DNA of 64,000 nt from Owenia fusiformis (lineage: Eukaryota; Annelida; Polychaeta; Sabellida; Oweniidae): NCBI GenBank assembly GCA_903813345.2, contig CAIIXF020000002.1:24006455-24070454 (forward strand). The letters are read 5' to 3'. A model generated the notes under the pieces. It had not been told where the DNA came from. It saw only the letters and a program-made list of their open reading frames with translations, and made no database searches. This document shows, piece by piece, positions 15,790-54,296 of the stretch. How positions within the stretch are numbered: position 1 is the first letter of the stretch; the number at the start of each line of letters is the position of its first letter. The position numbers and the translations under genes were made by a program.

Positions 15790-18700
15790 TAAAATGTTCC
15801 CGTTTTGTTGAAGTATACTTTTGGCTCTGAACTGAGCTACATTTGGAAAAAATAAAGTTATTTCTATATCTCACAAGTAATTTTGTAAAAAGATCAAAGA
15901 TTGGTTCATTTAACTTTATCTCATTGGCAGGTCCATAGCCAGGGTGATTTCAGAGGGAGCAAGCACCCCCCCCCCTTTGTCCAAAAATTCTTTCAAAATC
16001 ATGTAGTTTTCAACATTCTGAGCACTTTTCAAGTGTTATTGGCCCAAAGTTGTCAAATGAGAACCCCCTGGAATTTTATGAAAAGTAAACCCCCTTGGTA
16101 AAAGCTGGCTAGGGGCCTGAATGTTTAATTTTCTTGTTTATGCTCAAATTCGATGAAAAATACACAGCAGTGAAAAAACTAATTAGAGGGGGGAGGGGGC
16201 GCTCAAAATATAACAAACCAAAATAAAGATAATACAGATAATAAATACAATACATACATATTTTGTTAAATATACAAAATTATATTTCATTGTCTCATTT
16301 ATAATTACATACAATTTGTAGACAAATACTATTGTCTTAAATAAAAATCAATGAATTTCAAAATGGCATATACAGACATACCAAGTGTGGAATTTTTATT
16401 ACACTTCTGTACAAAAGTTTGGTAACCAGAAGTCCCTTTTTGACCATGAGTTAAAAATTCTGATTGGTGATTTTAAAAAATTCAGTCATGAATTACAGAT
16501 CTAATGTAATGAGAAATTAATATTCAGAAAAAACTTGATTTTTTCTGGGACTTTGGGTTGCCAAATAATTATACATGTTGTAGTGTAGTTAATTTGAAAC
16601 GAAAATGGAACATCCATAGCTGATCAACAAATCAATAAGTATAAGAGAACAAATATATTTTATCTTACATGACAAACTTCCCAAATTGTGATGAAATGTT
16701 AACTAAATTTCTACAAAATGCAATGGTACATTTATATGTAATGGTAAAATTAGGCTTAAGTGATGAAGTTCTACATTTAGCTTCCTTTACTGAAAATGCT
16801 CATGTTTATATACTGTATATGTTCCTTAAAACAGAAAGTAGTTATTACATTTTATAATAGAGCTTGTAACTAGTTCTACTGACTTCATGGCAAGAATGAA
16901 TATCATAAAATATTTAAATGACTTGTTCATACTACTGTACAGTATAAATGCGACTAAATCTATGCTACAGAACATTATAAATTACAACCAGAAAGTTCCA
17001 GCGATGGATGAGTCCATATATGGATTTAAAGGCGCCAAATACTGCCTCAATACAGAGTACCAGGCCCCATTGTAACATGAGTTTGCTTGAGGTGTCATTA
17101 TAAGTAAAGCTAGAGGCTACATGTATATGCAACTGATATGAGGCCACTCATGGAGCTGAGATACTTTGAATCAGGAATCCCATTTATACATAACATATAT
17201 TTACACTTGTGGAAAAGAACCAAAAATTATGTATTTCCCTTGTAGGTGTAACCCAAAATCTAAATGAATTATCTATAACTTTTGACTATTGAACACAATT
17301 CCTTATAGGCAGACATACAAATTACATCCCCATTTTTAACTATTTTACAAATACATCCCTATTTGATGGAATCTCTTGTAGTCTCTCTTGGTACACTCTA
17401 AAATGCTACTTGGTCTTACTCTTTATTTTTCTTGAAGACTGAAGTATCTGATATTCCTACATCTACAAATTAATAACCTAGAGCAGGGTTTGAAATGCAC
17501 AACTGTTTGCCAATGGTATTTCACTCTTCAGGCAGCATTCAGTCAGGGGGGAGGGTGCGGTAGCAAAAAAAATTCAGTTTTCAGTCAGGGGGTTGCAATT
17601 GTGGAATAAACAACCCAAAAAGAAGATTTATTTGAATTTTTCAAATAAAAAGCATTTTAAAGCTCTTTTCTTCTTCTTTCTCCTTTTTTTATTTTAATTG
17701 GTTATGGGGGGGGGGGGGTTGCGAGCACCCATCACCCCCCGCCGAAGAGGCTATTTTGACATGTCCTAGTCAGTATGAATGAAAAGTGAATTTTTCACCA
17801 AGATAAGAAAAATCCTAGTAAAAAGAATGGTTGATATGTAATTGCTCTTTGGACTCTGATGTTAAGCATGACCCCAATGCCAGAAAATGACGCACCTATG
17901 CTACAGTCATATTACATCATTCTCAAATACCTAACTAGTCATCAGTAAATGTACAAAAATAACTCTTTTGAGTCAAACCCGCAGTAATATTTCATGTTCA
18001 TAAAGTACATACAATGTACAGATGTCATTTCGTAAAATACATACAATAAACAAATGTCATTTCATATGATTCACAAGTCATCATATTTTAAAATAAAAAT
18101 AAAAAATGCTTGTTTTTGGCAGTGAAGAAATGATGTACACAAAGACATACTTCTCTACTTCTTCATAGTTCTAATTTCATTTTGTGTTAATAAGACTATA
18201 TTTCCAATTTCTAAATTATGTTTTACATTTGTATTATTGTCTCAAATCAATAAATGAATAAGGAGCGCTATATAAAGTTGTACTCATTTAGTGGAGTGAG
18301 ACCTTACATGAATCAATTGCAATATGTAGCGACTTGCTTAATCTTACATTTAGCCTCTGGACCCCCCCCCAACTTGTAGGGGATGTTTGTCGTTTGAGAA
18401 AGGAGGGGGGGGGGTACAAATGAAGGTTTGCTAAATCCTCGTCATGTATGGATGTAGGCCTATGGGAATACCAATCCCCACCATGTACGGCCAAATCCCA
18501 TCATGACATGTGAATTCCCTTTCATGTATGGGAATCTCCTTTCATGACTTAAATACATCGATGATTACGTTTAAAGCTTTTTAAAGCGACTAAAATACAA
18601 CATTAAAACTTACAAAAGATTGTCTCGGCATGAATGACAGCAGAGTTGGAATTAATTAAAATCTATATATCAGGGTTTGACCTGTGTAAAAATGAATTAA

Positions 18701-19732
18701 TTGACGCATTTCTACATTGGGAGAATTTATTCATCCATGAGGAGTGAAATGCATCTAAAGTAGCTGTCACATTAGCCATGTAGGCTCACCATTCACCATC
18801 ATGTGGCTAATTTAGGGCATAAATTTTTTGATTAATTTTTGTATTTGGTGTGATGAGGGATAACTCGCGGTAAAAACAATTTTTTGCCCACTCTGTATTC
18901 ATGTCGTTCTCCATCTGCCCCAAAGTATTCACATTGTGGCGAATGGTGAGCCTGCACGGCCTAAAGTGACACCTCCATAGTCCATAAAGGACAGATTTGG
19001 ACTGGTCTGACAAAAATACAAGCGTGTATTACCAAATAGTACAAGTACTAAAAATGGTACTAAAAAGTGTTTGCACAACAGCTAAATGTAACTAAATCTC
19101 CCAAATAATTATGTACACAAATTAAATTAAATCAAATATAAGTAAATATAATATATTGATATGATTTCCTCAATTGAAAACTACTGTTCATTTTAGTTTC
19201 TCTGTATCCTTAAGTTATTTGATCTAAGCATAGGCCCAGGAACATGTATAATTAATGCAAAATCAAAGTTTGTCCAATCGGAATCTCTGAGTCCACTATA
19301 CATGCTCCTGGGCCTATGGATGTACATGTAAGGCTGTAGTAGTTAAATTCTTTGCTTAGTATTATTTTGATTTGCAGAATAATGAGCATTGTACTGCAAA
19401 GTACAAGAATTGTTTTTTTCCATAAATGCTACATTGGCCTTACTATAGTAGTTTGTAATCATTTGTTTGCTAGATTTCGAGAAAGTTGCATAATCATTTT
19501 ATATTTTCACACTGTGTCGAAGAAAATACACTCAAAAGGACCAGTTATAAATGCGAAGTGGCTAAAAGTGTTACAACATGAGCTCTGCAAACATTTTCAA
19601 AATAAATTCCAGATTGTTTTTATGAGACATACACAGACTTCACGAGGAGAATTCTAATTTCACTTCAGTTCCTTTCATAGAAATTAAGAGTTACAGTAAA
19701 TTATTACAGGTTCAGAAATTGCAAATGAATAT
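15790..19732. other. Convergent intergenic region and KLHL5 3' UTR, no gene seen
   Basis: AT-rich DNA between the FAM47E-like stop and the last KLHL5 reading frame. It has homopolymer C/G runs (near 15966, 17706, 18362 and 18402) and a degenerate repeat at about 15925-16115. That repeat shares ggcccaaagttgtcaaatg, accccctgga and ggctaggggcctg words with 15050-15180, 47417-47520 and 63290-63430. The short open frames match nothing and have no splice context. The KLHL5 poly(A) site must lie somewhere here, but I cannot pick it. Confidence 0.6.
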
Positions 19733-20683
19733 CTAAAAGTCACCAAGATTTTGAAGGTGACTATCATCTTTTGAAACCTTTGATGTTTTTCTATGACGTT
19801 GTCTTGGCAATGTGCTACTTTGTGACGCCCCTGATGATTGTTGATGGGGTTGGTCATGAGATCTTTGTGGTGTGTCCTGATATCTTACAAGATGAGGTGA
19901 AGACTGTGGTGACGCATTTGCACTAGCGCCACCTGGTGGTGTTGAACTTGAACTAGAAGATCGTGGGCTTCCGGACAAATTAGGCGACCCTGATTGGCTA
20001 TTTGATTGGGATCCACGTCGGCTTGAACCAGCAGCCGGTTGCATGTGTGGACTCCGAGGAGACTTCGGCGATCCAGATAACTTTTGAACCTGCAAAGTTT
20101 TCTGTGGTGAAATCTGGCCACTTTGCTTAGAATGAGTATGACTCGATCCTTTTCTCATCATTTTAGGATCAAAAACAATTTTTGGCCTCACTGATTGGTC
20201 CGTCCATTTACTAGGACTGGTGCTGCCACCTTCAGTGATTCGTTGAGCGCTTTGAGCTATGCGCTCGACATTGTCACTACTAAAACTACTAAGCGCGTAA
20301 CCCTGAGTTGTTGAGATATCTTCATATATTGGTGGCGACTTATGTCCTGTTTTGGGGCTACCAGTACCTTGGCATGTTGCATTACCACTGGCTTGACTGA
20401 TAGCATGTACACTTTGCCTGTGCTTCATCTTAGGACTTACATGACTAACATTGTCATAATCTTCAGCAAATGTGGACGGGGCTTCCCCGGCCGGCACCTT
20501 CTCTCCAGGCGCTCCCTTTGATCCATTTTTCTGTGCTAGCCGAAATAATCCAGCAGGCATTGACAGATGGCGCCGCAAGGCATATGTTGCAGCTTCGGCT
20601 TGTTTTGTGTATTTCCGTAGGTAATCTTCGGATATGCGTGTACTTGGACTACGGGGAGGGGGAGAGGGGCGCTTGCGTTCTAG
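19733..20683 (-). CDS. KLHL5: Predicted readthrough extension of KLHL5 (316 codons)
   Basis: Directly after the KLHL5 TGA, the same frame stays open for 316 sense codons and ends at TAG (19733-19735). The first codons give LERKRPSPPPRSPSTRISED, then a helix-prone EDYLRKYTKQAEAATYALRR. Later come an acidic/aromatic patch (FAEDYDNVSH), YEDIST, SSDNVERIAQSAQRI, KIVFDPKMM, and a long serine/proline/glutamine-rich tail with SPK/SPR/SPH repeats ending NLGDF. Codon choice looks coding and much less AT-biased than its surroundings. The first in-frame ATG is well inside, and no separate promoter is seen. I read it as a C-terminal isoform made by stop-codon readthrough. An alternative splice joining it out of the Kelch exon is possible but was not found. 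Confidence 0.72.
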   Translation of the reverse strand, partial: LERKRPSPPPRSPSTRISEDYLRKYTKQAEAATYALRRHLSMPAGLFRLAQKNGSKGAPGEKVPAGEAPSTFAEDYDNVSHVSPKMKHRQSVHAISQASGNATCQGTGSPKTGHKSPPIYEDISTTQGYALSSFSSDNVERIAQSAQRITEGGSTSPSKWTDQSVRPKIVFDPKMMRKGSSHTHSKQSGQISPQKTLQVQKLSGSPKSPRSPHMQPAAGSSRRGSQSNSQSGSPNLSGSPRSSSSSSTPPGGASANASPQSSPHLVRYQDTPQRSHDQPHQQSSGASQSSTLPRQRHRKTSKVSKDDSHLQNLGDF

Positions 20684-20686
20684 TCA
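20680..20686 (-). promoter_or_regulatory. Leaky stop context TGA CTAG ending the KLHL5 Kelch domain
   Basis: The annotated-type stop is TGA (20684-20686) followed immediately by CTAG. UGA-CUA(G) is the established efficient readthrough context in animals, for example human OPRL1, OPRK1, AQP4 and MAPK10. The stop falls just after [12 protein letters not shown], where vertebrate KLHL1/4/5 proteins also end, so it is a genuine terminator of the short form and not a sequencing error inside the domain. Confidence 0.8.
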
Positions 20687-23600
20687 GGCACTCTTGACGT
20701 GTACCACACAGGCTCCGGCACGACCTGTGCGCAATGACGAGACCTGAAATGATAAACATGCAATGGAATGGTTATTTAGATTTCAGCAAAGATCTCATTC
20801 CCTTGATGTTGTATAGTTGTCAATGCCATGAATTCAAAATCTTTCTTAACAATCAACGCTCATTTTCATTCCTCAGATGACATACTACGATCCTTTTTCA
20901 ACATTAATGGCACCTTTCTTAAAAGTGATTTTGAGGATTTTCAGGAATAACGCTAACATAGCAATCATGTCCATCATTTGTCAAAAGGTCATTATAATTA
21001 TATTAATAATAAGAAATAATTTACCTTTGACCATTCATTTGACTGAGGGTCATAACATTCAACGTCACTAAGATACTGTTGACCATCATAACCACCAACA
21101 GCGTAAAGTTTATCCCCAAGGAGACAGACGGAGACAGCATCACGTGGAGAACTAATCGATGACACCAATGTCCAGGTATCTGTCTTTGGGTCATATCTAA
21201 AAATAAAGATTCCACGTTATGTATTAGTTCACAAAAGAGCTAGTGTAAATGGAGCTGGGTAGGTGATGGAAAATTGGGGTAGGCATAATCTTGAGCCCTA
21301 TCTTACTGTAAAATTGCATTCTATTTCAACTACGGTAAAACTTGACTTTGTGGAACACCTTCGGTACCTCAAAGTGTTCCACTTGAGGTGTTCCACATAT
21401 AGAGGTTCTAAACAATCAAGAGTGTCCACTTCATGTGTGTTTACTTTATTCTCTTCTGCTTCAACATTTTCCCTTATACTTCTTCTTAAAACATGACCAG
21501 TGACAAACTTGTGAATACACACCTTTCAACACAGTCGAATCTGCTGGATGTAGGATTAGAAGCTGGAGCATCGTGCCCACCAATGGCATACAGGAAACCA
21601 TTACAAGTGGCAACACCTACACCACCACGGCGACGTGTCATCAACGAACAGAGAGACCATTTGTTGGTATGTGGGTCGAAACATTCCACAGACCTTAGAC
21701 AAGAACTGCCATCTCTCCCACCAACAGCGTACAATCTGAAGTAAAAATGTAATCAAACTATCATGATGAAACAGTATTTCAATTCAGCCAAAAAAAACCA
21801 AAAATATTTTCAAATTACTTTTCTGTTGTTTTATTTGCTAGATGACAGTAAAATACAATAATTCTGTGACTTAAATTCCCAATAATGCCAAATACGAAAA
21901 ATAGTCGCAAAAAACTACAAGAAGTTGGTCAAATAGTTTATTGTACCTAACTAAACAAATAACTTTCATGATATTTTTGTATACAATTGTATTTGTCTCA
22001 ATTATCATCTAAAACTGCACAGAAACCCTGCAGAAAACTGGAATAGGTAATCAATGCATTTATATGAAAAATGTAAACAAACTTACTTATTTCCAAGGAC
22101 TGCTACACCCGCAGTGCTCCTGGCAGTGGACATGGGAGCAACATAGCTCCATTGCCTGGCCTGGGGGTCCCATCTCTCTACAGTATTGAGGTAGGACCAT
22201 CCATCGTGACCCCCTACAGCATACATAGGCCCCTCTAGTACACCCACCCCTAAAGTGAAAAAGTTTAGGTTTAGTTTCAATAAATGGCATAGTGTAGTGC
22301 TATGTATATTATATAACATTGCTGAGATGAATGATCTGATTTTTGGGATGGCATAAATCAATTAAAAATGTTGATTTTTGTCATGTGAAAATCTAATCAA
22401 TTTTCAATCCTGGAGGATCTGGGGGTTAAACCATAATTAAAAAATTACCTATTATTTTTCATGGCTTTCATTTAGATACTATCCCTAAAGGAAAAAAAAT
22501 TGTTAAAATCCCAAAATAGATGGCAATGTACCATTGGCCTTATTTTCTCAAAGTACTTCAAACATTTGCATATTTTGAAAGAATTCTATTCTTTGCTTTT
22601 TCCATCATTCATTTTGTACTAATTCGCCATTCATACAGAATAATGTTTTTTAATTCTTCCCTATACCTTAAGATTTAAAGTATTTACTGCATAAAATCAT
22701 GTTGGTTTTAAGTGCAACCAAACTAAAAATATAATTAATTACCTAAACCATGCCTATGGGTTGACATGGGCATCATCAGGGACCATTTCTTAGTGCTAGG
22801 ATCATAACACTCCACAGTATTCAGTGTTTTGAGACCATCCCTTCCTCCAACTACATATAGCCGATCCTCCAACACGGCAACACCAAACTGTAGACGACGT
22901 CCACTCATGTTTGCAACCTGGTTCCAGGTGTTTGTTCTGAGGTCGTATTTTTCAATACTGGTAGCACCTGAAATACAGAAATAATAATATTAAATATTCC
23001 AATGTGAGGTACTTTTCACTTAATTTATAGTTGACTTTCATCAAAATTGACTTGGAACCTGTCAGTCTTGTCCCATAGTCTGTCTCTTGTCCCATAGTCA
23101 GACTTGTCCAAAAGTTTGTTTATCCCCATAGCTGGCCTTATTCAAAACAATTATTCTGATAACATACCTTCAGTGTTTCCCTTAGTGCAGTCCATACCCC
23201 CTACAGCGTACAACACGCCCACTGTAGACTTGCGGGGCTTGGTCCTTGGACTTTGGAGGGAGAGGCGTCTCTCTGGTAGAAGGTGATACTTCAACGCCTC
23301 CATGATTAGTGACTGACATTCACTGTCATCCTTGAACAATGGGTTTGTCTCCACTTTATCAGCAATAAACTGAAAGTGAATTTCAAAACATAACCATACA
23401 GTGTAAAATGATTATTATTGAATTGCAAATGTTTTTCAATGTTCAATGGCAATACAAATGGAAACGTTTTGAAATGGAAATGTTTTGCGATACAAGTGAA
23501 TGAAGAATATGATATGAAGTGCAACTTCATCTTTGATCTCATATTTATTCAGAATTTTTGTAAATATTATACTAAACATTGAACATTTGCTACTTCTGCT

Positions 23601-26600
23601 GCAAAATTATGGCTCTTATTCTGACTTTTTATTTCTGTTTGAAATAAACATAAATTTTCAATAAAAACTAAAATAAAATAAATTCTTACTTGTGGAGCCA
23701 TCAGGGGTAGTTTCACATGAGCAAGTAGTGTTGCGAGGTCCGACTTTCTCTCCACCTCATCGTGTTTGGTCCACGTCGTGAGCGCGTGAAATATTACCTC
23801 TTCACTTGGAACGTTGAGATCTTCGGAACTAAGCAGTCTCGCTACATCGTCACAAGGCAGCAACAGGTACTCTTGATTGCGTATAACTTCACAGAAGTGT
23901 TCCTGGCGAAGAAGTGAATAAATTATTTTAAATTCAATTTTGTCAAGGAATGATCTTGAAAACTGTTTTGAAAACCATTTGATTGTAATATTTTGATGAA
24001 TAAATTCTTAAATGGTCTATATGTGAGTTTTAAGTTGGGCGGTACTCAAAACCAAAGCCAAAACCCACAAGTGAAAGGTTGTGTAGTGAATGTGGGGTAA
24101 TTGAGGATGAGCTTCACTTTATCACAAGCTGTACAAAGAACTTAAAACACAGAGAGCTTTTGTTTGAAACTTTAGAATCTGATCTGAAACAGTGCAAAGA
24201 TCCAGATAAACTGTTTGAAACTATTATGTCTAGTAAAAGCTCTCATGTTAACTTACATTTAGCCAAATTTGTATATCACTCTTTTAAAAATTTGGAAAAT
24301 GATTAATATTATGTAAACATTTTTTAAAACACATGTATTATGGATACACCACACTGATATCATACCCTGACATGTGAAACTGATGTAAAGTAGTTTTGTA
24401 GTATGTAGTTGTAGTTTGTAGTTTTTTGTACACTGTAGTGAGTAGTGACTGATATGTCATTTACATGACATGGTTATTGAGTCAATAAAAGATATATATA
24501 TGGAAATATTTAAAGAATGAAGCTGAAACATTAAATCTTTGAAATTTTGGGTCAAAATAGCCAATTTTGGGTCAAAATAGCCAATTCTGGCAAAATTCAT
24601 AACTTCTGCAAAATTCAGAGATTCATTTCAATAATTCTGATATTCTGCTGATTTGAAAGTTAACCCTCTGAAAAATCAAGAAAATTGCCTTTCTTACCAG
24701 CTTAGCCCATTACTTACCATTACATAACCATTAGCGATTTTGTAGAGATCCATACATCCCTGAGCATCTGCAAACTGCCGGATCCCTATACAATTTGACG
24801 GATGGAGCTGTTTCATGAGAAAAGAGCAACACGCATCAATTACTTCAGTCAGTTGTAAAAGGCAGGCTGTTGAGAGAAGATTTTCCACATTGTCTTCTTT
24901 GAGATCAATTTTACCTGAAAATATATAAATATTTTAAGGTGATTAAAAGAATATCAAGAATGCCATAATACAACATCAAATAGACTAAACTACATCTACC
25001 CTGCGTGCAGAGTCTAGTTAAACTACACTCTGCCTAGTAGAGACCATACTACAGTTTAGTAGCCCCGCCCCCACGACGGTACCGGTGACAGTTTGGGTAA
25101 ATCACATTTGACTTACGCGCTGACCTTCCACCAATCAGCGAGCTTGAAGAAACATACGCCAAATGCGTTCTAATTAAATATGCGCATGTCATTGGTCAAT
25201 TCCGGGCTCAACGATGACGTCAGAAGAAATGACCAATTAAACAACGTCGGTTAAATTTGGCCGACGAACTCTGATTGGCGCGGTGAGGTCACAGGTTTAT
25301 TTTAGTTTGAAAGAGTGAAGACGAAGCTCTCTTTTAAGAAGTGAAGTCAAACGAATGCAAAGGGTAAACTACATCCAGATCAAAACAGTATACGACTGGA
25401 TGTCCCATCCCTGGATACAACAATATCAGACAAGCCTTCAAATGTATGCACACATATATTTGAGTGAAGCAATTTATGTTTACCTTGATAAGACACATTT
25501 TTCTTAAAAAACAAGTTAGTTAATGAAAACACAGAATGAAATCCTGTGATAAGGGCTGGCGTGAAAGGTCAGTCCACCCCAGTGGGGATTGAACCCACAA
25601 ATCATCCTGAAAAGGATGTATACCTAATATTATAGAATAAAACATTTTTGCACATTAATTTTCTGTTCTTCACTTGAGTCATTGATTAACAAAAAATAGT
25701 TAACTCGTAATAACTACAAGAAATAGTGCCATTGACAAAAAGTTTCATTAGCAAACACAATACTTCTTCCATTCCCTTGGCACTTAAATAAGGCTTGACT
25801 TTTATGTTGTTTGATGTCATTTTTGTCATATTGATGGCATTTGTGATAAAATTAATTGGCAATTTCATATCTTTCATTCAGTTACTCATATATCACTCCA
25901 AGGTGAATTTATAAACCCCAGACCTGAGATATAAACATGTCACGGGTTCTGTCTTTCCTTTGAATGGCTATCTTGCATAAAATTCATCTCGCTTTAGACA
26001 CTTCAGATGATTCTCCATGGTATATAAAAAATACCAAGGCACTTCATGACAAACTACAGCTTTTTTGATTTCAAGCTGAAAGTAATTATCAATTCCATGC
26101 CAAATAAATATATAAATGTCTTATCTTTCAAGATAAGGGTTCGCTGCTATAGCTATGGAAAGAATTGAAATACCCTTGGACCAAGGATGCCGATCTCTTA
26201 TGATTGAAATGATTTTGATTTAACATATACAGATCATGGGCATAGCCAGGGGGGTGTGATGGGTGCAATCGAACCCCCATTCGAGGGGATGAGTCCTCCA
26301 GGGATGAGTTGTCCAGGGGATGAGTTGTCCAGGGATGAGTTGTCTGGGGGATGACTTGTCCGGTTACCAATACCCCTTTTTGGGGCTCGCTTCACTCGCA
26401 ATAATGCAAACCAAAAAACTTAACCCTCTCGACAATTTCTGGCTATGCCCCTCCAGATGTTAAATCTTCTAGATTCATCTCTATACTTCTCTTGGATTAT
26501 CATGACTAACTTAACATTGAAGGCCGCAACCTTCAGATTGCAGAGTTCACTTAATTGAATCTTCAAATCCAATATAAAAGGAGTAAAAGACCTAGAACAC

Positions 26601-29600: not shown

Positions 29601-32600
29601 CATGAGAGTACCATTTTTGTGTCTTTAGAATAGAGTAAAATCAACCTGAACTCAAAATAATTTTCATACTAATGCAACATCAATAAGTAAAACAAGTCAC
29701 TGAATGTCACAATGTGCAAATGGCTACAAAAGTGTAACAAGTGTTACAGATATGGCTAATGTGATAGCCAGTCACAAAAAATGAAATCTGTAACAATATT
29801 TCAACATTCCTTTCTTGTAATCTCCCATACACAGATTAACATAAAATGTACAAAAATATGCAAAAATGAATAGCATACATTATCAATATGTATGCTATTC
29901 TTTGTGTACATAAATCTTTGCATACCAGTATAAAGTGAACATTACAATTTCTATATGTGCATCAATTCGCTAAAATATCCTTATAAATGTCCAAAATTTC
30001 AGCAGATATTATACAATTTCAAACTTCAACATCTACCCCATTCATTTCTACAATCCCCAATTCTTCCGTTTCACTTTTTTTTCCGTTTAACAAATAATAA
30101 TCGCTGAGTTTTTATTCACGGCGCTGCTCATAAATCTCTTATAACTGGGACCTAACTTACTTATCTTGTGTAAGGCTTCAATTTCGACCACTCAAATGCG
30201 TCCCTGGGGAAACAGAGCTTGATATATTGTTGGACCAACAGTAATTTAAACTCATCCTTGCATAGTACAATGGCCTAATAGATAATACTTGGTTGGACGA
30301 AAACAGAATTGAGTACAGTTTTGATTTTTTCGAGAAAAAGGCTTCAATAAGGTTTTTATTTCCATTATTTTGATTTTGCAGAATTTAAAGAGATATTCCT
30401 CCTCTTCAAATTCCTGCTTGGGAGACAAAGGCAAAGGTTGAGTTATATTGCCCCTTTAAACCAAATAAAAATAGCCATCTTAAAATTAACCTAACACATC
30501 CAAAAAATGAGTTCTAGAATAACCAAAAACATTCCTGAAAATTTCAAATCAATTTGTCGAGCAATTTGTCTGGAAGTGAACAGACAAGAAAAATCAGACG
30601 CCAAACCACACTATTAACTGACAATGGATGCGTATGTTGCTAATTCTAATGAAATGACTGCATTAATGCATGCACTTCAGCAAAATACAGATTCTGAGTA
30701 ATACAGAGTTCTTGAAGTGGTTGATATACCATGAATCATCAAAATGCTTTATACGATCCCATCATACAAAGATGGGAGGACTGCATCAATTGAATTATGG
30801 TATTCAATAGATCAAAAATGGGACAGATGTAAATGCTTAAAACGATTATTTAGCTCCTTTAATGGTTCATCAATAGAACAAGATTTTGTAAAGATGTCTC
30901 ATTTAGGGTTGAAGACCAATACTATCAAAGACTACAGTGAGACCTGTCTTAGTGAACACCGCTCTCTAGCGAACACCTGTGTCTAGCACCTACTCCACTG
31001 ACTTCTGTATAAAACCACAACTCTGTCGTGAACACCTACCTACAATGAACACATTTTTGTGGCTCCATATGTGTTAAATATATACAAGTTTTACTGAACA
31101 TGCAATATGGGAATACCTCATATTTTTCTGAAGGAAGATGGGGTGACCAGACTGAATGTAATAGAGTACTTTTGACTATACATGGAATATCCTTCTTTTA
31201 TTAGTTGAGATTCAATTCAACATAAGAAGTTATTACAATGTTGATTGAAATGCTATATATTAATGCAGGTTACCAATAGACTTTTCATGCTTTTTACAAT
31301 TATGGCAGAAAATAATAAATTACACACCTGCTTTTCTTGATATCCAATAACAATTCCAAGAAAATTAACTATAGTCCGAAGATTGCATCTTTAAAAGGGC
31401 ATAGCCAACCATGTTTAGGTTTTCCTTGAAATCATTTTAACTGTAAGTATAGTTATAATTTAACAGGCCACTGTGATCTTCTATTAATCAAGGTGCTATT
31501 ATTGATTGATTAAACAATGTTTATATTGGAGTAAGATAGCAACAAGGAATAAGAATTTTCACATCATATGTAGTTTCCTCGAGGATGAAATATTTTGTGT
31601 AAGCTTGATTTCTAGGAACTATATATATATATATCTTCAATATATGGAAGAGGTTTCCGAATAATCCTTCATAGTTAGAAAATACATTTTGAAATACATG
31701 TCAGGAATTTCTCTATATGGAAAATATGCATGTACCAATAGCTATAGCGAGGTTTCTACAGAAACAATGTGATAATTTCTCAACATAACAATATTGAATT
31801 TGACAATATTTAAGAAGCGATGGGTCTGACTTACTCAATACATGATGTTGAGGACGCGATACTTTCCAGCAATCAACAAAGACTACAAGAAATTTTACAA
31901 AGCTCATGGTCTCACTTCTCATGTACAACATTACTGTTATGGGCCTGTGAGAATTCAAGGGAGCAGCATGTTGAAGTGAACTGCAGAATTTTCCAGACAT
32001 TGATTGACAATGGGGCAGATATCAATACTGTTGACAAAGATGGAAAGACTGCATTAACGTACGCACTTCAGAAAAACACAACTGACTTCTTGAAGATATT
32101 AATCGATAATGGCGCAGATTTAAATATGACCAAATATGGGAATAAAACTGCTTTAATGTATGCCCTTGAGAGAAATAGAAGTGACTTTGCCAAGATGTTA
32201 ATTGACAATGGCGTTGATATAAATGCAGCTATTGACAGAGATGGAAAGACTCCTTTAATGTTTGCGATCGGGATAAAGACAATTGACTTTGTGAAAATGT
32301 TAATTGACAATGGGGCAGATATCAATGCTGCAAATAAATATGGAGAAACTGCATTAATGCATGCACTTAAAAGAAACAGAAGTGACTCTGTAAAAATGCT
32401 GATTAACAATGGTGCAGATTTAAATATGGCTGATGAGGATGGGGCAACTGCACTGATGTACGCAATTGGGATAAATACAACCGACTTTGTGAGGATGTTA
32501 GTCGACAATGGTGCAAATGTGAATGCTGCTGACCATGATTGGAAGACTGTACTGATGTTTGCACTTGAGAGAAATGCAGAAAATTTAGCTATTCTTACAC

Positions 32601-35600
32601 TGATTGAGAATGGTGCAGATGTGAATGCTACTAACAAAGATGGAAAGACTGCATTAATGTATGGAGGAAAAAGGTCAATTCATGGCATGCAGCTGTTGAT
32701 TGACAACGGAGCAGATGTTAATATCACTAACAACGATGATATGACTGCACTGATGTTTGCAATTGGTTACGATACAGCCAAGCTCCTAATTGACAATGGT
32801 GCAGATGTAAATGCTGCTGACAAACATGGGATGACTGCATTAATGTTTGAACTTTGGAAAAATTCTCAAGGTATGCAGCTGTTGATCGATAAAGGAGCAG
32901 ATATAGATGCTATCAATAAACATGGGAGAACTGCATTAACGCTTGTAGTAGAGGTAGATGCTAAGGGAACAGATATAGATGAGACATATGCAGATGTAGA
33001 TGTGACACATACAGATGTGACCCAAACAGATGTAGATGTGACACATGCAGAAATGAACATTACAGGAAATGTGAAACATTGGTCCAAGTTTGGACCATTA
33101 ATGCCTGGAGATAAAGCCAAGTATTTAGAAATCTTGATAGACAATAGAGCAGATATAAGTGCTCTTAATAAAGATTCTATCTACCCTTACATCAGTAACA
33201 AAACAATACAGTTTTGCATGGATGTAACATTCGGTGCTGAACATATCAACCAGGAAGAGTTTACTGCAATATGTGAAGATCATCATATCAACGACAGAAG
33301 TAAATTTGAATTAGTTGATCTTATTCAAAGCAGGAAAACCAGCCTTAAACACCAGGCAAGGATGTATATATTGAAAACAAAAGGGATGGATTGTAATGCA
33401 TATGTGGATCTCATAAATTGTTTAATCAATGAAGGACACTTGGCAGTCGGGTTGAAACACTTTATGATGTTTAAAAGTGAAGTACAAGATATGATGTCAC
33501 TATTCAAAGATTAATGTGATGTGGAGAAATAGTGGCCATTTTGAATTAAGCGTCCATCTTGAAAGTTTCTTCATGAACCATGTTTCAACATATAGCAATT
33601 GATATTTGAGTTATTAGTGATTGTATTTACAAAAAGTGGTGGCCATTTTGAAATTCAGTGGCCATCTTGAAAATTTCTTCTGGAGCAGAGGTCTTTCACC
33701 CATAAGTCATAAGCCTAAAAAATGTGAACCAAATTCATAGACCAAACGAATGGACAGCTTCTCTATATCCCTCTTAAACTTCGTTTGGTGGAATAATTAA
33801 CTTGTGGATTGCAGCAGTGATAGCCAGTGTGGTTAAAACAGTACTAAAGGATGGATCGTAATGGTGATCACCAGTCTGATATATAGGAGATCTAACCATT
33901 AGAAAACCAATTTGCTAAATGACTAAATCATGCCGCAATATTTAATTAAATCACCAAGTAGAGCGAATTCTGCAATTATCACTGTAAATAATTAATGACA
34001 TTGTCTGGGAAAAATGTCAACAAGCTCACAATTTGAAAGAGAGAATTAAGAAGGGAGACTAGAAAAACAGCAACTCCACGACCAACGGTTGGAAATTCCA
34101 ATAAAAAACGTCAAATATGTTGACATTAATCATTATTAAAGATTATTTCCAAAAGACATTTAGTTATTCATGATATAACTTATTCTTAAGCTAGGTATTT
34201 TGTATTTAGAATGAAATCTCAAAAAGGTTTCCTGTGCCTGTGGGGTCATGGCAACAGACGCTCATCCAAGGGCCTCCTATCCCATCACTAATACATGTAC
34301 AGGGTGTCCAAAAAAAACAGGACCGTAAGAAAGTTGAATAACTCGGTCAATTTTGCATATTTTGCCTTGAAATTTCAGAATTATTTAGTTCATTCAATGT
34401 GAATTTTGTTGTGAAAGTTTGATAATAATCTGTTAATTAAGTCAAAAACTACAGCTCCTAACAAAACATGCCCCAAATGTGCAAATCTCATCTCTATGCA
34501 CAATTCAATCCGGCGAACAAAGCTGTTGATGATCCTCCTCCACACATTTCTTTCTGAATGGACAAGTTTGTTCCAAGAACAATTGCTACTGGGGCTTACA
34601 TCCTTCTGATGAAGTGTTACAGCATCCATTGCATTCTGAACAATGCACTCCCTGGGTGGCAATGAGGAAACATGGAATCATTAGTCCCTTTTGGTTCGAA
34701 GGTGACTGGGGACTTGGTATCACCATGAACAAGGACCAGTAAGTTCTCACCAAGTTTTGGAGGTCACTAAGCACCAGAAGGGACATCTAAGGAGATAATT
34801 AAGCAGTGGTTTCAACAAGCCAATTCCACCCCAACACTGCAAATGATATGCTGAAATGGTTTAGGCAATGCTTTGGTGGTCAGCTCATCAGTTGCAGAAC
34901 GCAAACCATATTCGCCTGATCTAAATCCCCCAAATTTTTATCTTTGAGGATTTCTCAAAGCCAATGTGTATACTGACAGGCCCCTAACAATCTTAAGAGG
35001 GCAATAACTACCCCAATATTTACCATACACATTAATGTGTATAGGTAAGGGTCATTAACAACTTTGTTCGCAGGGTTAGTTTGTGCATAGAGAGGAGAAG
35101 TGCCCACTTTGAGCATGTTTTGTAAAGGACTGTAGTTTTTGACACAATAACCAGATTATCATCAAACTTTCAGAACAAAATTCACATTGAATGAACTAAA
35201 TAATTCTCAAATTTCAAGGCAAAATATGCAAAATTGATTGAGTTATTCAACTTTCTTACGGTCCTGTTTTTTTTTGGACACCCTGTACATTTATTGATGA
35301 TGTCACATAAAAAGCCATTGCATGCAACAAAGAGAACACTGAGCTTACTTATTAATCTAGCTCAATGAACTGTGTGAATAGAATGGCACCAAGATCACAA
35401 ACAGTCTCGATTGTGGAATTTCTGGAATCTCTAACAACAGGCAGAAAGTAAAAATGAGCAGACAACAAGTAATTCTATAGGAAATTATAATTCGAACATA
35501 GAGACAGTTGCTAGATTCTTCAAAAGAACAGACAATGTTGGTGAAAACAACTGAAAACATCATCTGTTGTTTGCTGCTAATAAAACCTGTGATCATGAAG

Positions 35601-38149
35601 ACAAATAACACCCTTCCTCAAATTCCTTCACTAACAATCACATATAAGAATTCTATTCCATTAAGAAAAAACTTCAAGCATTCACAGTGCGTGAAATAAG
35701 GATTTTTTTAACCTAGACATTTTGGCAGGCCAGCCAGATTTTAACCAGCCATATCATTTTTTCTCAGGCCAATTTTTTGCAGCCTGTTTCTTACTTCTCT
35801 GGCCAAAAATTTCATTTTCCATATTTCTCCACAACCACTCTAAAATGAGATTTAGTTTAGTACAATATTAACAAAGTAAAACTAATTCCATTGCATGTCA
35901 TGTATCATTCACTATACTGTACTTGATGACTTAACCAACAGCCTGGGTGTGTTGATTCCCCCCTAGATTCACCTTACAAAAACATGAGGAACGTGTACAT
36001 ATTGATCAAACTAAATTGTACTGATTTTGGTCGGTTTAGAATTGCTCTCAGAAGCTTCAAGGTATTCAAAAACACATACTATGTGCACAGACTCCACTAA
36101 CAGACTAAAATTCAAGGTATATGTTAGAGGTGTCACGGTCCAAATAAATTTCGGTACGGTACGGAACGGTACAAATGGTCTCGGGACCCGATACTTTCGA
36201 GACAGGACGGGACAGAACATTAAAAATGATTCAATGTCTGATGATGACAGTTTCACTTTCAGTTTCACTTTTCAAAATCATATTCAGAAATACGTCAATT
36301 AAAATCGAATATAAAGCATCTGCCGTGAATGTGATCGGCATTTCACATAGTATGCATGGTGAACTATCACCAATTCGTTTACCTTGTGATATCGGAGTCC
36401 CAAAATACTTCCAAACTGCCGACTTTTTGGACTTAGATGCCGGCTCGATTTTTCAATTTCTTTTCTACATCCGGCATACTGATAATGCACTCGATTTGCG
36501 AACGACGATGAAGAAATGAGTCATCCATAGCCAATCAAAATCACCGTAATTTCAACAAACAACAACAGCCAATCAAAAGTCACGTTATATCTTGGGCTTC
36601 AGTATGAAAACAAAAATATTTGAAATTTTTTTAAATCTTCAACAAAAGTCATGGAATAAGCCGAAATCGCGGGGAATTCGGAGGATTTCCGGACTGAAAT
36701 GTGAGTTCTATTCATGGGCAATCTAACGAATGCCACAAATGTCTGGCAGGCCAAAATGTCTGGGTGTTTTTATCAAAACAAGCCATCTATAATTTTGTAA
36801 GGCCAATGGCCGATGTCGGACGTCTATTTCGCGCACTGCATTCAGTATTCTTCAGAAGTTTGTGTCAATATTTTCTGACATGTTCGAATCACTTTGATAT
36901 GAGAAGTAGCTGTGGCTTAACACTAGAATGATTTAATTGAACATATGTGTACTGATAGGGGCCTTGTGCTAAGTTCAACAAAAAAGAGTTTTGTAGTTTT
37001 GTATAGAGGGAGGGGGACATACTTGATATTTACTAGATGATTTATTCTAAAATATTTATTCAAGACTTAATAACATATTTTTGGTAGCCCCATTGCCCAA
37101 TCCAAAAATTCTCAAAAATGAAGCAATTGGTAATTTTTGTGTACTTTTCTTTTGTGATTTCATGTATTTCATGTCATGTTAAGTTATGGAGGAAGATGTA
37201 GTGAAAAGGCCTACTGATGTTATGATACAGACAAAAAACTAACGGTTTTAGCTGTTCCTAAACTTTTGAGATGTCCCCTTCCCCCAAGGCTTTTTACCAT
37301 ATCATCCTACGAATCTGGCTATCTGTTAAAACCATGCTGATCTCCAGATCAATTTGAAATTTTTCTGTCAAAATACATTCAAAATGTTTATACCAAACCC
37401 ATTTCTTCCAGCATTGTGTAATTGAATAAACAAACAGGCAAGATCTAGGTTAGGTTTAGAAGAAACTTAGCTAGCAGTTCCAAGCCAATAAAGAGAACAG
37501 AATAAATTTCTCAAAAAGTCAGAGAAATATTTACTGAAAATGTATTTCCTTTTTCAAAATATCCCTAGATAGCAGATGCAATTTCTGATACTAATGGGCC
37601 CCTCATACATGAACGAATCGATTAAACCCAGCCTTGCAAATTGGGTAAATTGTCAATTCTGGCAATTGGGAACCACAACTGAAACACCTTTTCATTGGCT
37701 ATTGTAAGAAATAAAGCATTACAGAAACAGAATCAAGAATTGGCACATTGGCACAAAAATTGGCAAAATTCAATGAATCATATATAGATCTAGTTTTACC
37801 TGTGTAAGCATACTGGACTAAGGCAGTTAAGGCATCGGCATCTACATCAATCATTTCAACCTCATCAGAAGTCGCTTCTTTCACGTCACTTGTAAACATT
37901 GCATCAAAATAATCCGATGCGCTACTTAGCACCAATTTATGAGCAGGAATTCGTCGTGGTCCAACGACCAATACAACGTCACATAATTGTTTTTTCAGTA
38001 CGTAGTTTTCCATTTTCTTTATCATTTTTTCTGAGTGGTTTATGGAATGGTAAGATTCGTCGGGCGGTGACTCAGCATCCATTTTGATACCCGAAGATGA
38101 TGTAGAGGCGCCACAGTTGTAGTTACTGTAACTATGATGCACAAGGTAC
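20684..38149 (-). CDS. KLHL5: KLHL5-type BTB-BACK-Kelch protein, 9 coding exons (N-terminus incomplete)
   Basis: Probable substrate adaptor of a Cullin-3 ubiquitin ligase, with actin-linked relatives (KLHL1/4/5). Exons in phase: 37800-38149, 24718-24914, 23690-23902, 23168-23369, 22743-22967, 22087-22249, 21523-21735, 21025-21196, 20684-20743; at least 597 aa to the [77 protein letters not shown]. Linker: [12 protein letters not shown]. Six Kelch blades: [69 protein letters not shown]. The words WDPQARQW and [12 protein letters not shown] favour KLHL5 over KLHL1/4. The first exon here opens at an acceptor (phase 1); an internal ATG at 38080-38082 precedes the BTB, so an upstream exon is probable and unplaced. 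Intron 24915-37799 carries a nested gene. Confidence 0.95.
24050..24510 (+). mobile_element. 3' fragment of a non-LTR retrotransposon
   Basis: A frame ending at 24306 gives a short C-terminal tail with Cys-x2-Cys, then ELHF and Cys ([17 protein letters not shown]), the pattern seen at the end of the larger LINE at 40213-43720. An AT-rich 3' UTR follows, with aataaaag near 24485. It is heavily 5'-truncated and lies in a KLHL5 intron, antisense to the gene. Upstream bases stay in frame back to about 24050 (KPKPTSER). Confidence 0.7.
24997..25366. mobile_element. 370-bp MITE with 9-bp target duplication, carrying CRE and CCAAT boxes
   Basis: The ends are TACCCT / AGGGTA, flanked by the exact 9-bp repeat aactacatc (24988-24996 and 25367-25375). 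Inside are a perfect CRE palindrome TGACGTCA (25215-25222) and four CCAAT boxes in both orientations (25131, 25191, 25233, 25274). GC content is high for this window. The insertion ends 82 bp before the start of a KLHL5 exon. A deleted sister copy lies at 47777-47857 and a decayed one at 47998-48122. No ORF. The duplication length suggests Mutator-like mobilisation. Confidence 0.85.
25581..25598 (-). other. tRNA-like B-box, possible SINE remnant
   Basis: On the minus strand GTGGGTTCAATCCCCACT contains a good RNA polymerase III B-box (GGTTCAATCCC) in a small stem. I find no A-box or cloverleaf at the right spacing, so this is not called a tRNA. A tRNA-derived SINE fragment is the simplest reading. 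Confidence 0.35.
26281..26361. repeat. Short tandem repeat of ggatgagttgtccag-type units
   Basis: About five imperfect units of 16-18 bp (gggatgag-t-c/t-t/c-ccag). They sit inside a degenerate foldback whose outer words are gcatagccagg (26232) and ctggctatgcccc (26439). It lies in the long KLHL5 intron. Confidence 0.6.
26876..27016. mobile_element. Small foldback MITE, about 140 bp
   Basis: The left arm (ttatgccttggtcacatttgctc, then ggcacccagccgattg) pairs with the right arm (caatcggccaggtgcc, then gagcaaatctgacccaggcataa). The loop contains ttcaaaattgaatacaatattgaa. It is a nearly complete hairpin in the long KLHL5 intron. No target duplication could be assigned. Confidence 0.6.
28160..28330. 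repeat. Dispersed CCAAATGC-type repeat
   Basis: Degenerate short repeats of accaaatgctgaac / ccaaacaccaactgcc. They are followed by catccc/catccacaaaa and, in two copies, agttagagactataac. Other copies are at about 1330-1430, 47560-47650 and 48480-48820, usually introduced by aaaatgtcac and atttgttacag. It is an interspersed family of unknown class; no termini were resolved. Confidence 0.55.
30623..30840 (+). pseudogene. Decayed ankyrin-repeat relic
   Basis: DNA words line up with the intact gene downstream. These include gacaatgg, then aatgactgcattaatgcatgcactt (30650-30675), and later gatgggaggactgcatcaattgaa and aatgggacagatgtaaatgct. They match repeats of the 31820-33514 gene but are broken by stops and indels. 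It lies about 1 kb upstream on the same strand, so it looks like the remains of a tandem duplicate or an older longer gene. Confidence 0.7.
31820..33514 (+). CDS. Intronless ankyrin-repeat protein, 564 aa, nested in KLHL5 intron
   Basis: The N-terminus ([20 protein letters not shown]) has no signal peptide. About ten ankyrin repeats follow from residue 60 to 390, each with a variant of [20 protein letters not shown] and a helix A rich in FAKML/FVKML. Next comes an acidic threonine-rich spacer near 395-430 with repeated DVDVTH / DVTQT words. A helical C-terminal region ends [13 protein letters not shown]. The repeats are unusually alike at DNA level, suggesting recent internal duplication. It is one uninterrupted exon, antisense to KLHL5 and inside its 12.9-kb intron. 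No catalytic domain is seen, so no function is proposed. It could be a retrogene or a member of a lineage-specific ankyrin family. The ATG is the first in frame, with a purine at -3. Confidence 0.85.
   Translation: MGLTYSIHDVEDAILSSNQQRLQEILQSSWSHFSCTTLLLWACENSREQHVEVNCRIFQTLIDNGADINTVDKDGKTALTYALQKNTTDFLKILIDNGADLNMTKYGNKTALMYALERNRSDFAKMLIDNGVDINAAIDRDGKTPLMFAIGIKTIDFVKMLIDNGADINAANKYGETALMHALKRNRSDSVKMLINNGADLNMADEDGATALMYAIGINTTDFVRMLVDNGANVNAADHDWKTVLMFALERNAENLAILTLIENGADVNATNKDGKTALMYGGKRSIHGMQLLIDNGADVNITNNDDMTALMFAIGYDTAKLLIDNGADVNAADKHGMTALMFELWKNSQGMQLLIDKGADIDAINKHGRTALTLVVEVDAKGTDIDETYADVDVTHTDVTQTDVDVTHAEMNITGNVKHWSKFGPLMPGDKAKYLEILIDNRADISALNKDSIYPYISNKTIQFCMDVTFGAEHINQEEFTAICEDHHINDRSKFELVDLIQSRKTSLKHQARMYILKTKGMDCNAYVDLINCLINEGHLAVGLKHFMMFKSEVQDMMSLFKD
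34300..35285. mobile_element. Decayed Tc1/mariner-type element with duplicated inverted ends
   Basis: TA-flanked ends cagggtgtcc / ggacaccctg open into inverted repeats of about 140 bp, imperfectly extending to about 230 bp. A plus-strand relic reads [11 protein letters not shown] (near 34915), like the third catalytic block of IS630/mariner transposases. The transposase C-terminal words FVRR..LCIE..AHFEHVL end at 35125. The same words occur inverted on the minus strand near 34460-34530, so the left end carries a second, inverted copy of the transposase 3' end. Stops and indels make it inactive. Confidence 0.8.
36125..36560. mobile_element. Possible hAT-like element, left end only
   Basis: TAGAGGTGTCACGG at 36125 equals the end seen at 3718 and 7628, followed by cggtacggtacggaacggtac words. 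A matching right end was not found, so the limit given is a guess. Confidence 0.35.
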
Positions 38150-40212
38150 CTGGAAATACAAATTGAAAGAAATTAATATATCTAATAGGGCTTCAATCAA
38201 CGAGATTAGGTATGAGGCACAACACCATATAAATACTTAATGCATATAATCAACAGTTGTCAATATGTAGGTCAAATACTCAATGTTGATTGGTTCATTA
38301 ACAGTCAACAATACTGACTATTGACCAGTATACTTATACTGTTGACTGCTAGTAAAATACTGCTGAATTGCTATGGGTACACTGTTCAATCCTAAAAAAT
38401 AGACCATAAACCATCTTTGACTTCCCTTTAATTCATGACATACAAGAATAATTGAACATTCATGTATAACTCATAAGCACACTACCCTGGGTTTATGGGT
38501 AATACACTGCCCTCTGATTAAGCAGACAGTTTAACCGCCTGTCCAATGTTTCCTTATCAAAATACATTTTGGCTAAAAAATGAATGACCTATTGTCATTG
38601 TGTGATCTACAGCCTTACTATCTCTTGAAGTATGAGGCTCTGTCAAGCATTATATAAAGACTGGACTGATAAATTTGAATGCAAATGACCAACTCAGAAT
38701 GACTAAAGCTCTCATGTTTATAAGTCATATAAGATTATCAGCAGAATATACCACTCTTAGAAAGGTCTTTGGACTTGCAATAACATACTATATGGAAATA
38801 GTATATGGAAATTGCAAACTCTGATTGGCTCAGTGAGTTCAGAAATTAATCGGTCGTGTGAAGAGTGTAAGCAAAGAAGTCAACTCTTAGAAAGAGTAAT
38901 ACAAAACCATTCCTTCCACACATAATAGAATCCAAAGAACCATTAAATTTACACAAGACTAATTTTCCAACGAGAAAATAATGAAGAACTGAAAATCTAT
39001 AAATACAAGGCCGCTGAGCCCCAGGCAGTGTTGTTTTCTTATAGCTGATCATAGAAAATTGATATTCAACACTTGTAGTTAAAAGATCCTGTTTTAACTC
39101 TCGTTGAATATATCATTTGAGTTACCGTGACAACCATATTAATTTATTGCTCAATCTATTCCTAAGTATTTAGGCATGAAATAATTAATTAAGGCAGTCG
39201 GTTTAAATATTTTTTATGAAATTAGGCTCTTTTCTGTCGCTTTGACCTTGTTTGTGTACACTAGGATCGGCTTTACTGCACAAGCTAACTTTTATTCTTA
39301 ACAGACCAATCAGACTGCGCTATTTTCAATATAGCATCTTACCCGTGTAATAAAGATAAATACCAACCTGGAAGGTGTATGTGGATAGGCATTATTATAT
39401 AAGAATTGAGCCATTGTTCGAGTTTGGATTCTTTTCGAGCAGGACATTATCTTATCCTGTATCACCCAAACTGAGGCGCAAATATAGTCGGTCAATTCCA
39501 GTGTACTTAAGCCAAGCTCAGTGTACACTGAGTCAATTTAAGTGTAATCAGAGTTGATAAAACTGCACTAAGTCAAACAATTAGTGTCAACTGACTACAC
39601 TAGATCAAATTCATGAAAGAATATTTTGATTCAAATTGTAGTATGAAGTACTCATTTTCCAACAATTTTGGTTTTAAATTGTAAAGAGCTCCTGCACTTA
39701 AGGCTACTGATTGCATGAGTTAAAACATCCATCAATACTTCCAGTATTATTATCTTTTCACATGTCCATTATCCTAATTCTGTATCTGTACATTTGGCAA
39801 ATATATATTGAACTGACATCTATCACTTTTTCAACAATCACCAGCTTATCACATATCCATTGTATCCAAATTCTTCACTCCCTTTAAAATTATTTTAGTC
39901 TTAAACAGGTTCTCATTAATTTTAAAGCTACCAAATGCTGTAGTTACCATCCATCAATATATCAACTACTGGAGTCTCATCCTATCTTATTTTCATCGTA
40001 TCCTAATTCTATCCTCTCGCAATAATCACTGTAGCCTTGTTATAAATTACTCCGTTCAGCTCCGATTTACTCCACACAATAAATTTCTCTGTTGCTCTTA
40101 GAATAATTCTATAATTTATTGATTTTTAATCCAATCTAATTAATCAACATGGACTTAGCTTTTTGTCATTCACTCAAGAGTGAAATCGGCACCAGCGCTG
40201 ATTAAAGACAAA

Positions 40213-40736: not shown

Positions 40737-40860
40737 TTGTGTGTTGTTATATATACTGTTTTCTGTTGTATTGATATATTGTAAAATTAGTGTTTACTTT
40801 GTGTACACTTAACCTTTTATGGGTATGAATGTGTAATAAAGTTCATAAATCTATGAAAAT
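40685..40860 (+). mobile_element. Nested 158-bp LINE-tail insertion with 9-bp target duplication
   Basis: The exact direct repeat tatgaaaat occurs at 40685-40693 and 40852-40860. The DNA between is AT-rich, begins with a short coding-like tail (FIYSLIYLL then stop) and ends with aataaagttcataaatc, a LINE 3' UTR with a poly(A)-type signal. Removing one repeat plus the insert (167 nt) puts the two halves of the larger LINE back in one frame. This is a 5'-truncated copy of another LINE that landed in the first. Confidence 0.88.
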
Positions 40861-43557
40861 GACAATCACTTTGATGATGCTAAGAAAAGGTATGATGTAC
40901 GGAATGTTCCAAATAATTTCATGGAAAATGATGCTTTTAATGATATTTTAAATGATGCAATACTATCTATTGAAAACGCACTCAATGTATCAAATGATGT
41001 GAATAATGCATATTGTATTTTTGAAAATCTTGTACTTAAAGAAATGGATAAAAACCTTCCTGCAAAATCTAAACACACATGTCAAAACAAACGTAAAAAA
41101 TCTATGTATAAGGCATATTGGTGCAAGGAATTGGATAATGCATGGGAACAGGTGTGTAAATCTGAAAAAGCCTATATAAAATGTAAACATGGAGTATATC
41201 AAAAACGTGCCTTGAAAGCCACATATTGTCAAGATAGAAGGTATTTTGATCGTTTAAATAGAAAATATAAACGTAATTATCAACGTAAGGAAGAAATGGA
41301 ATTAATGAACATGTGTAATGATAAATACGATCAAAAGTCTTTCTGGAAACAAATTGGTAAAATAGGCATATCTGAAAATAGGCAAAACAGTATTCCTATG
41401 CAGGTTATCGACAGTGATGGTCAAATGTCAACCGATAAAAACACAATTTTGAACCAATGGGAAGTAGAGTTTCAGAAACTGTACAATCAAAAAGATAATC
41501 CCAATTACAACTCTGAGTTTTTTCACTCTATTCAAACTGAGTACAACTCAATGAATACCGATGAGTCCAAGGACGTAAACCCTGATTTAAACAAAGATAT
41601 TTCTTTACAAGAGGTCATGTCAAGCATAAAAAATGCTAAACTGAGAAAAGCCGCTGGTTTTGATCGAATACCTGCTGAGGTTATAAAAAACCGGGCGTGT
41701 ATGACATTACTTCATTTGATTATCGCATACTCATTCACTCACTCCATTGTTCCAGAACAATGGAACATGGGGATAATTAACCCAATTCCAAAATCTGGTA
41801 ACAAAGATCGTCGAGTTCCTTTAAATAGCCGCGGAATAACCTTGATCTCGATACCTTGTAAGGTTTATTGCGACATTATAAACTCACGCTTGACTGACTG
41901 GATTGAGAAAAATGGTAAACTTGTTGATGAACAAAACGGCTTTCGCAAGGAACGAAGCTGCCAGGACCATCTTTACTCATTATATTCTATTGTTCATAAC
42001 AGACAATTATCTAAACTGTCAACTTTTGTTTGTTTCGTAGATTTTTCTAAAGCCTTTGATAATATTAACAGACAATGTCTGTTTGTAAAATTGAATAGAA
42101 TGGGCATTAAAGGTCGTATATATCATGCCATAGTCTCACTTTATGAAAATGTGCAATGTGCGGTGAGAATAAATGGTACTTTAACAAATTGGTTTCCCGT
42201 TTCAAAGGGTGTGAAACAAGGGTGTAAAATTTCACCGAGTCTTTTTTCAATATATATTAACTCTTTAGCCACTGAGATTAAAAATTTAGGTCTTGGTGTA
42301 AAATATGGTTTGAATGAAAATATTAGTTTACTCTTATATGCTGATGACATCGCTTTAATTGCTGCAAATGAGTTTGATCTTCAGACAATGTTAGATAAAT
42401 TAAATGAATGGTGCAATAATTGGCGAATTCAAATCAATACTGAAAAAACCCAGGTTTTACATTTTCGCCCCAAAAATATTGTACAATCAAAATTTGTTTT
42501 TCTCTGTGGATTGAACACAATATCCTCTGTAAATGAATACCAATACCTAGGTTTGTATTTAGATGAGCACCTTACTTTTAAAAAGGCAATTGAAACATTA
42601 GCAGCCTCTGCTAGCAGAGCTCTTGGAGTCATTATTGCTAAATTTTACCATAAGGGAGGTTTTACCTTTGATGTTTTCACAAAACTTTATAATTCACTTG
42701 TTTTACCAATTATGACATATGGATCTGGTATTTGGGGAGATAAACCACGTGGACTGCTAAATAATGTTCAAAATAAGGCAGCCCGTTTCTTCCTAGGTGT
42801 TGGAAAGTACACACCAAATGATGCTGTAAATGGCGATATTGGATGGCCTTCATTTTATAGCGTTCAACTTAAGGAAACCTTTCGTCAGTGGTGTAGACTT
42901 ACAAATATGAATAATTCCCGTGTTACTAAAAAGATATTTACTTGGTCCAAAAATGTAAGAAAATCCTGGGAATACCAGGTCATTAAGATTTTTGATCAAA
43001 ATGGCTTAACAGATTTCACTGATAAAGAATGTACACAAATCCATGGTACTAAGGCCAAGATTAAAAGTTTTCAAAAGAAACTTATCGATAAACATCAAAT
43101 TGATTGGCATATAAACTTATGGAATGACAATAAAAACACAGAAAATGGTAACAAACTTAGAAGTTATAGACTCCATAAATCTCGTTTTCATACCGAGGAA
43201 TATGTTGAGATGTATTTACCTAGGATTTACAGACAAGCTCTGGCAAAACTTAGGTGTGGTGTATTACCTCTGAGGGTAGAAACTGGAAGATATAATCCCA
43301 AATTAGACCTTCATGACAGAATTTGTTTAATGTGTGATATGCAGGAAGTTGAAAATGAAATACACTTTCTAATAGATTGTCCATTGTATAATGATTTAAG
43401 ATATGATGTTTTCACTTACATGTCATCATTGCATCCTTCTTTTGAAAATTCAACAAATTTAGCAAAATATTGTTTAATTATGTGTGATTGCAATGTTTAC
43501 ATGCTAGCAAAGCTAGTATATTGTATGTTTAAACGACGTAAATTATTTTTATTGTAA
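40858..43557 (+). pseudogene. LINE reverse transcriptase (downstream half of split ORF)
   Basis: The longest ATG frame starts at 40921 (878 aa), but sense codons continue upstream in frame to the nested insertion, so that ATG is not a natural start. Reverse transcriptase blocks (numbered from it) are KAAGFDRIPAE (243-253), ITLISIPCK, EQNGFRKERSCQDH, FVDFSKAFD (372-380), GVKQGCKISPSLF and YADD (473-476) with both aspartates present. The C-terminal C-x2-C-x9-H-x4-C lies at 802-820. No RNase H domain is recognised. Frames are otherwise intact, so the copy is fairly young. Confidence 0.9.
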
Positions 43558-54262: not shown

Positions 54263-54296
54263 TCTCACATGAATAAGTAGATCAGAAACATCAACA

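Follow-up and report, generated by a model that had tools for sequence, protein, structure and literature searches.

Does a Kelch-family gene of Owenia fusiformis encode one protein or two? The question is raised by the stop codon of a KLHL1/4/5-type gene, a TGA that is directly followed by CTAG and by a long open frame in the same phase. Proteins of the KLHL family, with their BTB-BACK-Kelch architecture, are Cullin-3 adaptors. The gene lies in a stretch of 64,000 nucleotides, here called the window (C2:24006455-24070454), of a genome of 498,259,871 bases in 525 contigs. Nine exons can be modelled on the minus strand from 38082 to 20684 (Table 1), separated by eight GT-AG introns of consistent phases, and the last exon has the acceptor TTATCATTTCAG and is in phase with the preceding one. 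The encoded protein has at least 575 residues, with a BTB domain, a BACK domain and six Kelch repeats (six Kelch_1 stretches). Ahead of the ATG on which the model starts, the frame (about 38083-38151, minus strand) contains 12 residues that resemble RYLVHHAYGSYH of Lineus, and the true start is therefore probably found in an upstream exon.

Table 1. The KLHL1/4/5-type gene, its stop codon and the region downstream (positions within the window)
Feature	Position	Strand	Basis or remark
Exon with BTB start	37800..38082	-	First ATG used; upstream coding exon likely; BTB domain match
Exon (BTB/BACK)	24718..24914	-	Gene model
Exon (BACK)	23690..23902	-	Gene model
Exon (BACK to Kelch)	23168..23369	-	Gene model
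Kelch exon	22743..22967	-	Gene model
Kelch exon (exon 6), two-base overhang at end	22087..22249	-	Gene model
Kelch exon (exon 7), two-base overhang at end	21523..21735	-	Gene model
Kelch exon (exon 8), phase 0 at end	21025..21196	-	Gene model
Final 19 codons of standard KLHL protein	20687..20743	-	Gene model, translation
TGA stop, proposed readthrough codon	20684..20686	-	Sequence
CTAG immediately 3' of TGA	20680..20683	-	Sequence
C-rich tract ending TAG	20649..20668	-	Most pyrimidine-rich candidate 3' splice site in extension
316-codon in-frame extension; basic, rich in Ser and Pro, mostly disordered by prediction, two helices	19736..20683	-	
Second stop, TAG	19733..19735	-	Sequence
First downstream AATAAA	18726..18731	-	None between 20743 and 18731

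In a protein search that scored the 8000 candidates with the most words in common, 662 matches were obtained, and in the best 120 of these the closest proteins are KLHL5 and KLHL1. Identity is 68-81% over 525-575 columns for 45 of the best 120 of the 662; the top relative reaches 81%, the nemerteans Tubulanus and Lineus about 80%, the annelid Lamellibrachia and the brachiopod Lingula 77%, and molluscs 74-78%. With its domains and these closest relatives, the protein can be assigned by sequence to the KLHL1/4/5 clade. In a tree with 29 relatives it falls into no well-supported group, and the named rows nearest by path are the two nemerteans, Lingula and Haliotis. The place of the stop is shared widely: 118 of the best 120 of the 662 relatives have the motif GRAG[AS] near the C-terminus and stop 7-24 residues later, 111 of them 7 or 8 residues later, and the window TGA follows at 8, while in the two others of these 120 the motif is absent. 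Vertebrate, mollusc, annelid, nemertean and insect relatives have this stop position in common within a few residues, and as animal-wide relatives thus end at or close to the same place, the TGA is, judged from these proteins, the ancestral KLHL stop. The original prediction that the TGA sits exactly where vertebrate KLHL1/4/5 proteins end is thus borne out, and so is the predicted UGA-CUAG context, with TGACTAG at 20680-20686.

Three of the 3126 TGAs on both strands of the window are followed by CTAG, and TGACTAG is rarer there than the 6.45 occurrences expected from shuffles. Within the genome, 56 distinct in-frame next stops, at 30 loci, were collected downstream of Kelch matches (most of these frames run into introns, two are cut off, and some come from the KLHL1/4/5-type gene itself), and CTAG follows only the stop of this gene at 20684-20686; the longest second frame behind the 55 others has 97 codons. 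According to excerpts of PMC4132726, four human genes that carry UGA-CUAG were read through in HEK-293T reporters at rates of about 7-31%, 12 bases on the 3' side of the stop seemed to be enough for this, and a purine is preferred directly 5' of a readthrough stop; here the preceding base is C. No significant RNA structure was found 3' of the TGA (z -0.41 and -0.47), and in the same excerpts strong downstream structure is described as unneeded for OPRL1, OPRK1, MAPK10 and AQP4, in which UGA is likewise followed by CUAG. The motif alone is no proof, as four of 23 human genes with UGA-CUAG are given there as PhyloCSF-positive.

The frame after the TGA stays open in the Kelch phase for 316 codons, as had been predicted. 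At its own composition the chance of such openness is 1.7e-6, and none of 5000 dinucleotide shuffles stays open; across the same stretch, stops number 9 and 30 in the two other forward frames and 22, 18 and 13 in the reverse frames, and only three stop-to-stop frames in the window are longer, an ankyrin and two retroelement open reading frames. The surroundings had been described as stop-rich and AT-rich DNA, of which the first holds for the other frames, whereas the extension itself has 47% G+C and nearby 1-kb bins about 34-37%. The predicted coding-like composition and SP-rich tail are found as well: T, for example, makes up 13% at codon position 2 and 34% at position 3, and there are 14 Ser-Pro pairs where 5.7 are expected, a number reached by none of 5000 residue shuffles, so that the excess reflects the order of residues and not the composition. 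The product is basic (net +22 by simple count) and hydrophilic. Taken by sequence, a protein-coding extension is supported, with modest evidence for codons 1-41, which lie ahead of the first internal ATG. These codons score above open dinucleotide shuffles with two of three training sets (z 1.97 and 1.69, the third giving 0.81). By raw codon log-odds, codons 1-40 come out negative, which is the top value among the forward frames and below all three reverse frames. Three non-coding controls (z -5.5 to -6.7) were set aside, as stop codons were penalised in them and the shuffles were forced open.

For the last-exon product (336 residues, with the TGA read as Trp), a single-sequence model gives a mean pLDDT of 47.8, with 230 of the 336 residues below 50, and helices at 39-60 and 156-171 of the product, which are residues 19-40 and 136-151 of the extension. 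Most of the tail is thus predicted to be disordered, and its early part to form an amphipathic helix; the hydrophobic moment of the helix within codons 1-41 is 0.504 versus 0.217 and is reached by 0.7% of shuffles, for a stretch that was picked after the model was seen. A structure search with the model returned 30 matches, none at E<=0.001, which is uninformative because of the low model confidence.

The last exon and the extension each have one match in the own 498-Mb genome, and the search there found no second copy or relative of the extension. Elsewhere no relative was found either: among 5193 candidates from proteins of 174-553 residues none matched at E<=0.001, the first 170 residues gave 58 candidates and none at E<=10, two Pfam queries with the extension returned nothing, and none of the best 120 of the 662 relatives has the extension joined to a Kelch domain. 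In annotated and predicted proteins the position of the stop is conserved. As such records normally end at the TGA, the missing relatives are weak evidence against readthrough, although the second frames of close relatives, where predicted as proteins in their own right and similar enough, might have appeared in these searches. Excerpts of PMC5100048 also describe readthrough regions as fast diverging, with many orthologous pairs without visible similarity.

Before readthrough is accepted, curation in the excerpted text of PMC5100048 asks whether the stretch from the stop to an acceptor or start codon is coding and whether a SECIS is present. If alternative splicing bypassed the TGA, the extension would be a last exon and the CTAG a coincidence. 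A candidate acceptor for this exists, as 20648, 35 bases past the TGA, would be the first exon base after a tract of 93% pyrimidines that ends in TAG, exons 6 and 7, and these alone, have two-base overhangs that fit it, and the 12 codons in between are too few for a coding test. This tract is C-rich while the gene's acceptors are T-rich, ten other candidates score higher in a matrix from only eight introns, and a splice from exon 7 to 20648 would leave out exon 8 along with the last part of the propeller. The donor of exon 8 could instead join the in-frame acceptors 20671 or 20530, but in the same rough matrix the former scores -2.7 and the latter is outside the top ten. The candidates 19932 and 19883, with scores of 3.6 and 3.1, do fall into the range of the acceptors that the gene uses (1.0-12.2), but as they are some 250 codons into the extension they cannot account for the coding frame that precedes them. 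Among the best 120 of the 662 relatives, moreover, none is a Kelch protein with a tail of this kind, and a splicing bypass is unlikely. Quite unlikely, too, is a separate cistron, on the same mRNA or on one of its own, that starts at an internal ATG, the first of which is codon 42 (20560). From this ATG 275 codons are open, the stretch ahead of it would be open by chance in about one of six cases (0.16-0.17 for 43 codons), and its raw codon log-odds are negative, as said; codons 1-41 are nevertheless mildly coding in comparison with shuffles and contain the best-predicted helix, the extension shares the Kelch frame, which by chance happens in one of three cases, and a separate cistron leaves the CTAG unexplained. 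The start context of the ATG, CTGTCAATGC, is weak by the usual rule, which also counts against such a start.

A recent nonsense mutation or a sequencing error within a normally longer protein would need little, as TGA is a single transition away from CGA. It is very unlikely, since the relatives stop at the same place, and the CTAG would again be chance. That the UGA encodes selenocysteine or is edited to UGG is compatible with the identity of the stop, but by sequence search the downstream SECIS of a selenoprotein has no match in 16500-21300 at E<=5, and none of the four inverted repeats found in 18500-21300 spans the stop, so that this reading is hardly worth considering.

Programmed readthrough at UGA-CUAG is the best explanation of the locus and, unproven as it is, probably the correct one, as a single process then explains the motif together with the frame that is shared and the contiguous position of the extension. 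What speaks against it in advance is that, among 52 eukaryotes, abundant readthrough was found in Pancrustacea only (as stated in excerpts of PMC5100048), so that the prior is low. The extension is very probably part of the mRNA, because no AATAAA occurs between the start of the last exon (20743) and 18731, beyond the extension (Table 1). Of the originally predicted second isoform, the coding extension, the ancestral TGA and its context stand, whereas the occurrence and rate of readthrough and the role of the tail are what we infer. One mRNA would give rise to two proteins: most ribosomes would halt at the ancestral UGA and release the standard protein, and a minority would decode the UGA as an amino acid, which on readthrough is usually Trp, Arg or Cys. 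This would append a basic, Ser/Pro-rich and mostly disordered tail of 316 residues whose early part would form an amphipathic helix. The tail most likely would confer a phosphorylation-controlled binding or targeting on a fraction of the adaptor.

The closest parallel is kelch of Drosophila, which is KLHL2/3-like while the Owenia gene is of the KLHL1/4/5 type by protein search; both encode a BTB-BACK-Kelch protein with a UGA stop and a very long in-frame extension. VDR can also be likened to the Owenia gene, and its readthrough stop is said to have a CUAG context. In Drosophila kelch, readthrough of the UGA leads from 76 to 160 kDa and is commonly about 5% (excerpts of PMC4132726), and VDR is described as a readthrough gene in the excerpted PMC5868278. 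The extension of AQP4 is short, typically 28 residues in contrast to 316 here, and conservation is shown for human UGA-CUAG genes (PMC4132726), whereas the Owenia extension is known from one genome. Another lophotrochozoan case of proposed readthrough (excerpts of PMC3890597) is the FVa/EFLGa precursor of the annelid Platynereis, which is a neuropeptide precursor and not a Kelch protein. No report on KLHL5 readthrough was found in the open-licence PMC literature, as judged by titles. We tentatively consider, with somewhat less than even confidence, that a lophotrochozoan Kelch-family adaptor has independently acquired a regulated UGA readthrough with a tail of more than 300 residues, driven by CUAG as in vertebrate genes. 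If independently acquired, readthrough would be a recurrent route to two forms of Kelch-family adaptors. It would be a counterpart to Drosophila kelch from a different branch of the protein family and would add a lophotrochozoan nuclear gene to the cases of CUAG-type readthrough; notable are the length of the extension and the addition of a further Kelch-family case beside Drosophila kelch.

Several other elements are found near the gene. In the presumed 3' UTR, an inverted repeat at 19229-19318 has 22-nt arms that are 95% complementary and 46 bases apart; it folds into a strong hairpin (z -8.59) and has a let-7-like Rfam match of 29.4 bits, below the cut-off of 53.5. A let-7-like microRNA was rejected, as the stretch has 49 matches in the own genome, itself included, and because of these matches it is rather a dispersed MITE-like inverted repeat. 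A second inverted repeat at 18775-18960, with 45-nt arms and 80% complementarity, lies near the likely poly(A) site. No transfer RNA gene was found. Mobile elements are present in the form of a reverse-transcriptase open reading frame at 40849-43557 (plus strand), probably of a LINE, an open frame of 1279 residues at 54273-58112 (plus strand) with protease, reverse transcriptase, RNase H and integrase matches, probably of the Ty3 type, and a Mos1-like transposase fragment at 60489-61217 (minus strand). Within the modelled 13-kb first intron, on the opposite strand, 31814-33514 (plus strand) holds an ankyrin-repeat frame of 566 residues that is open without a stop.
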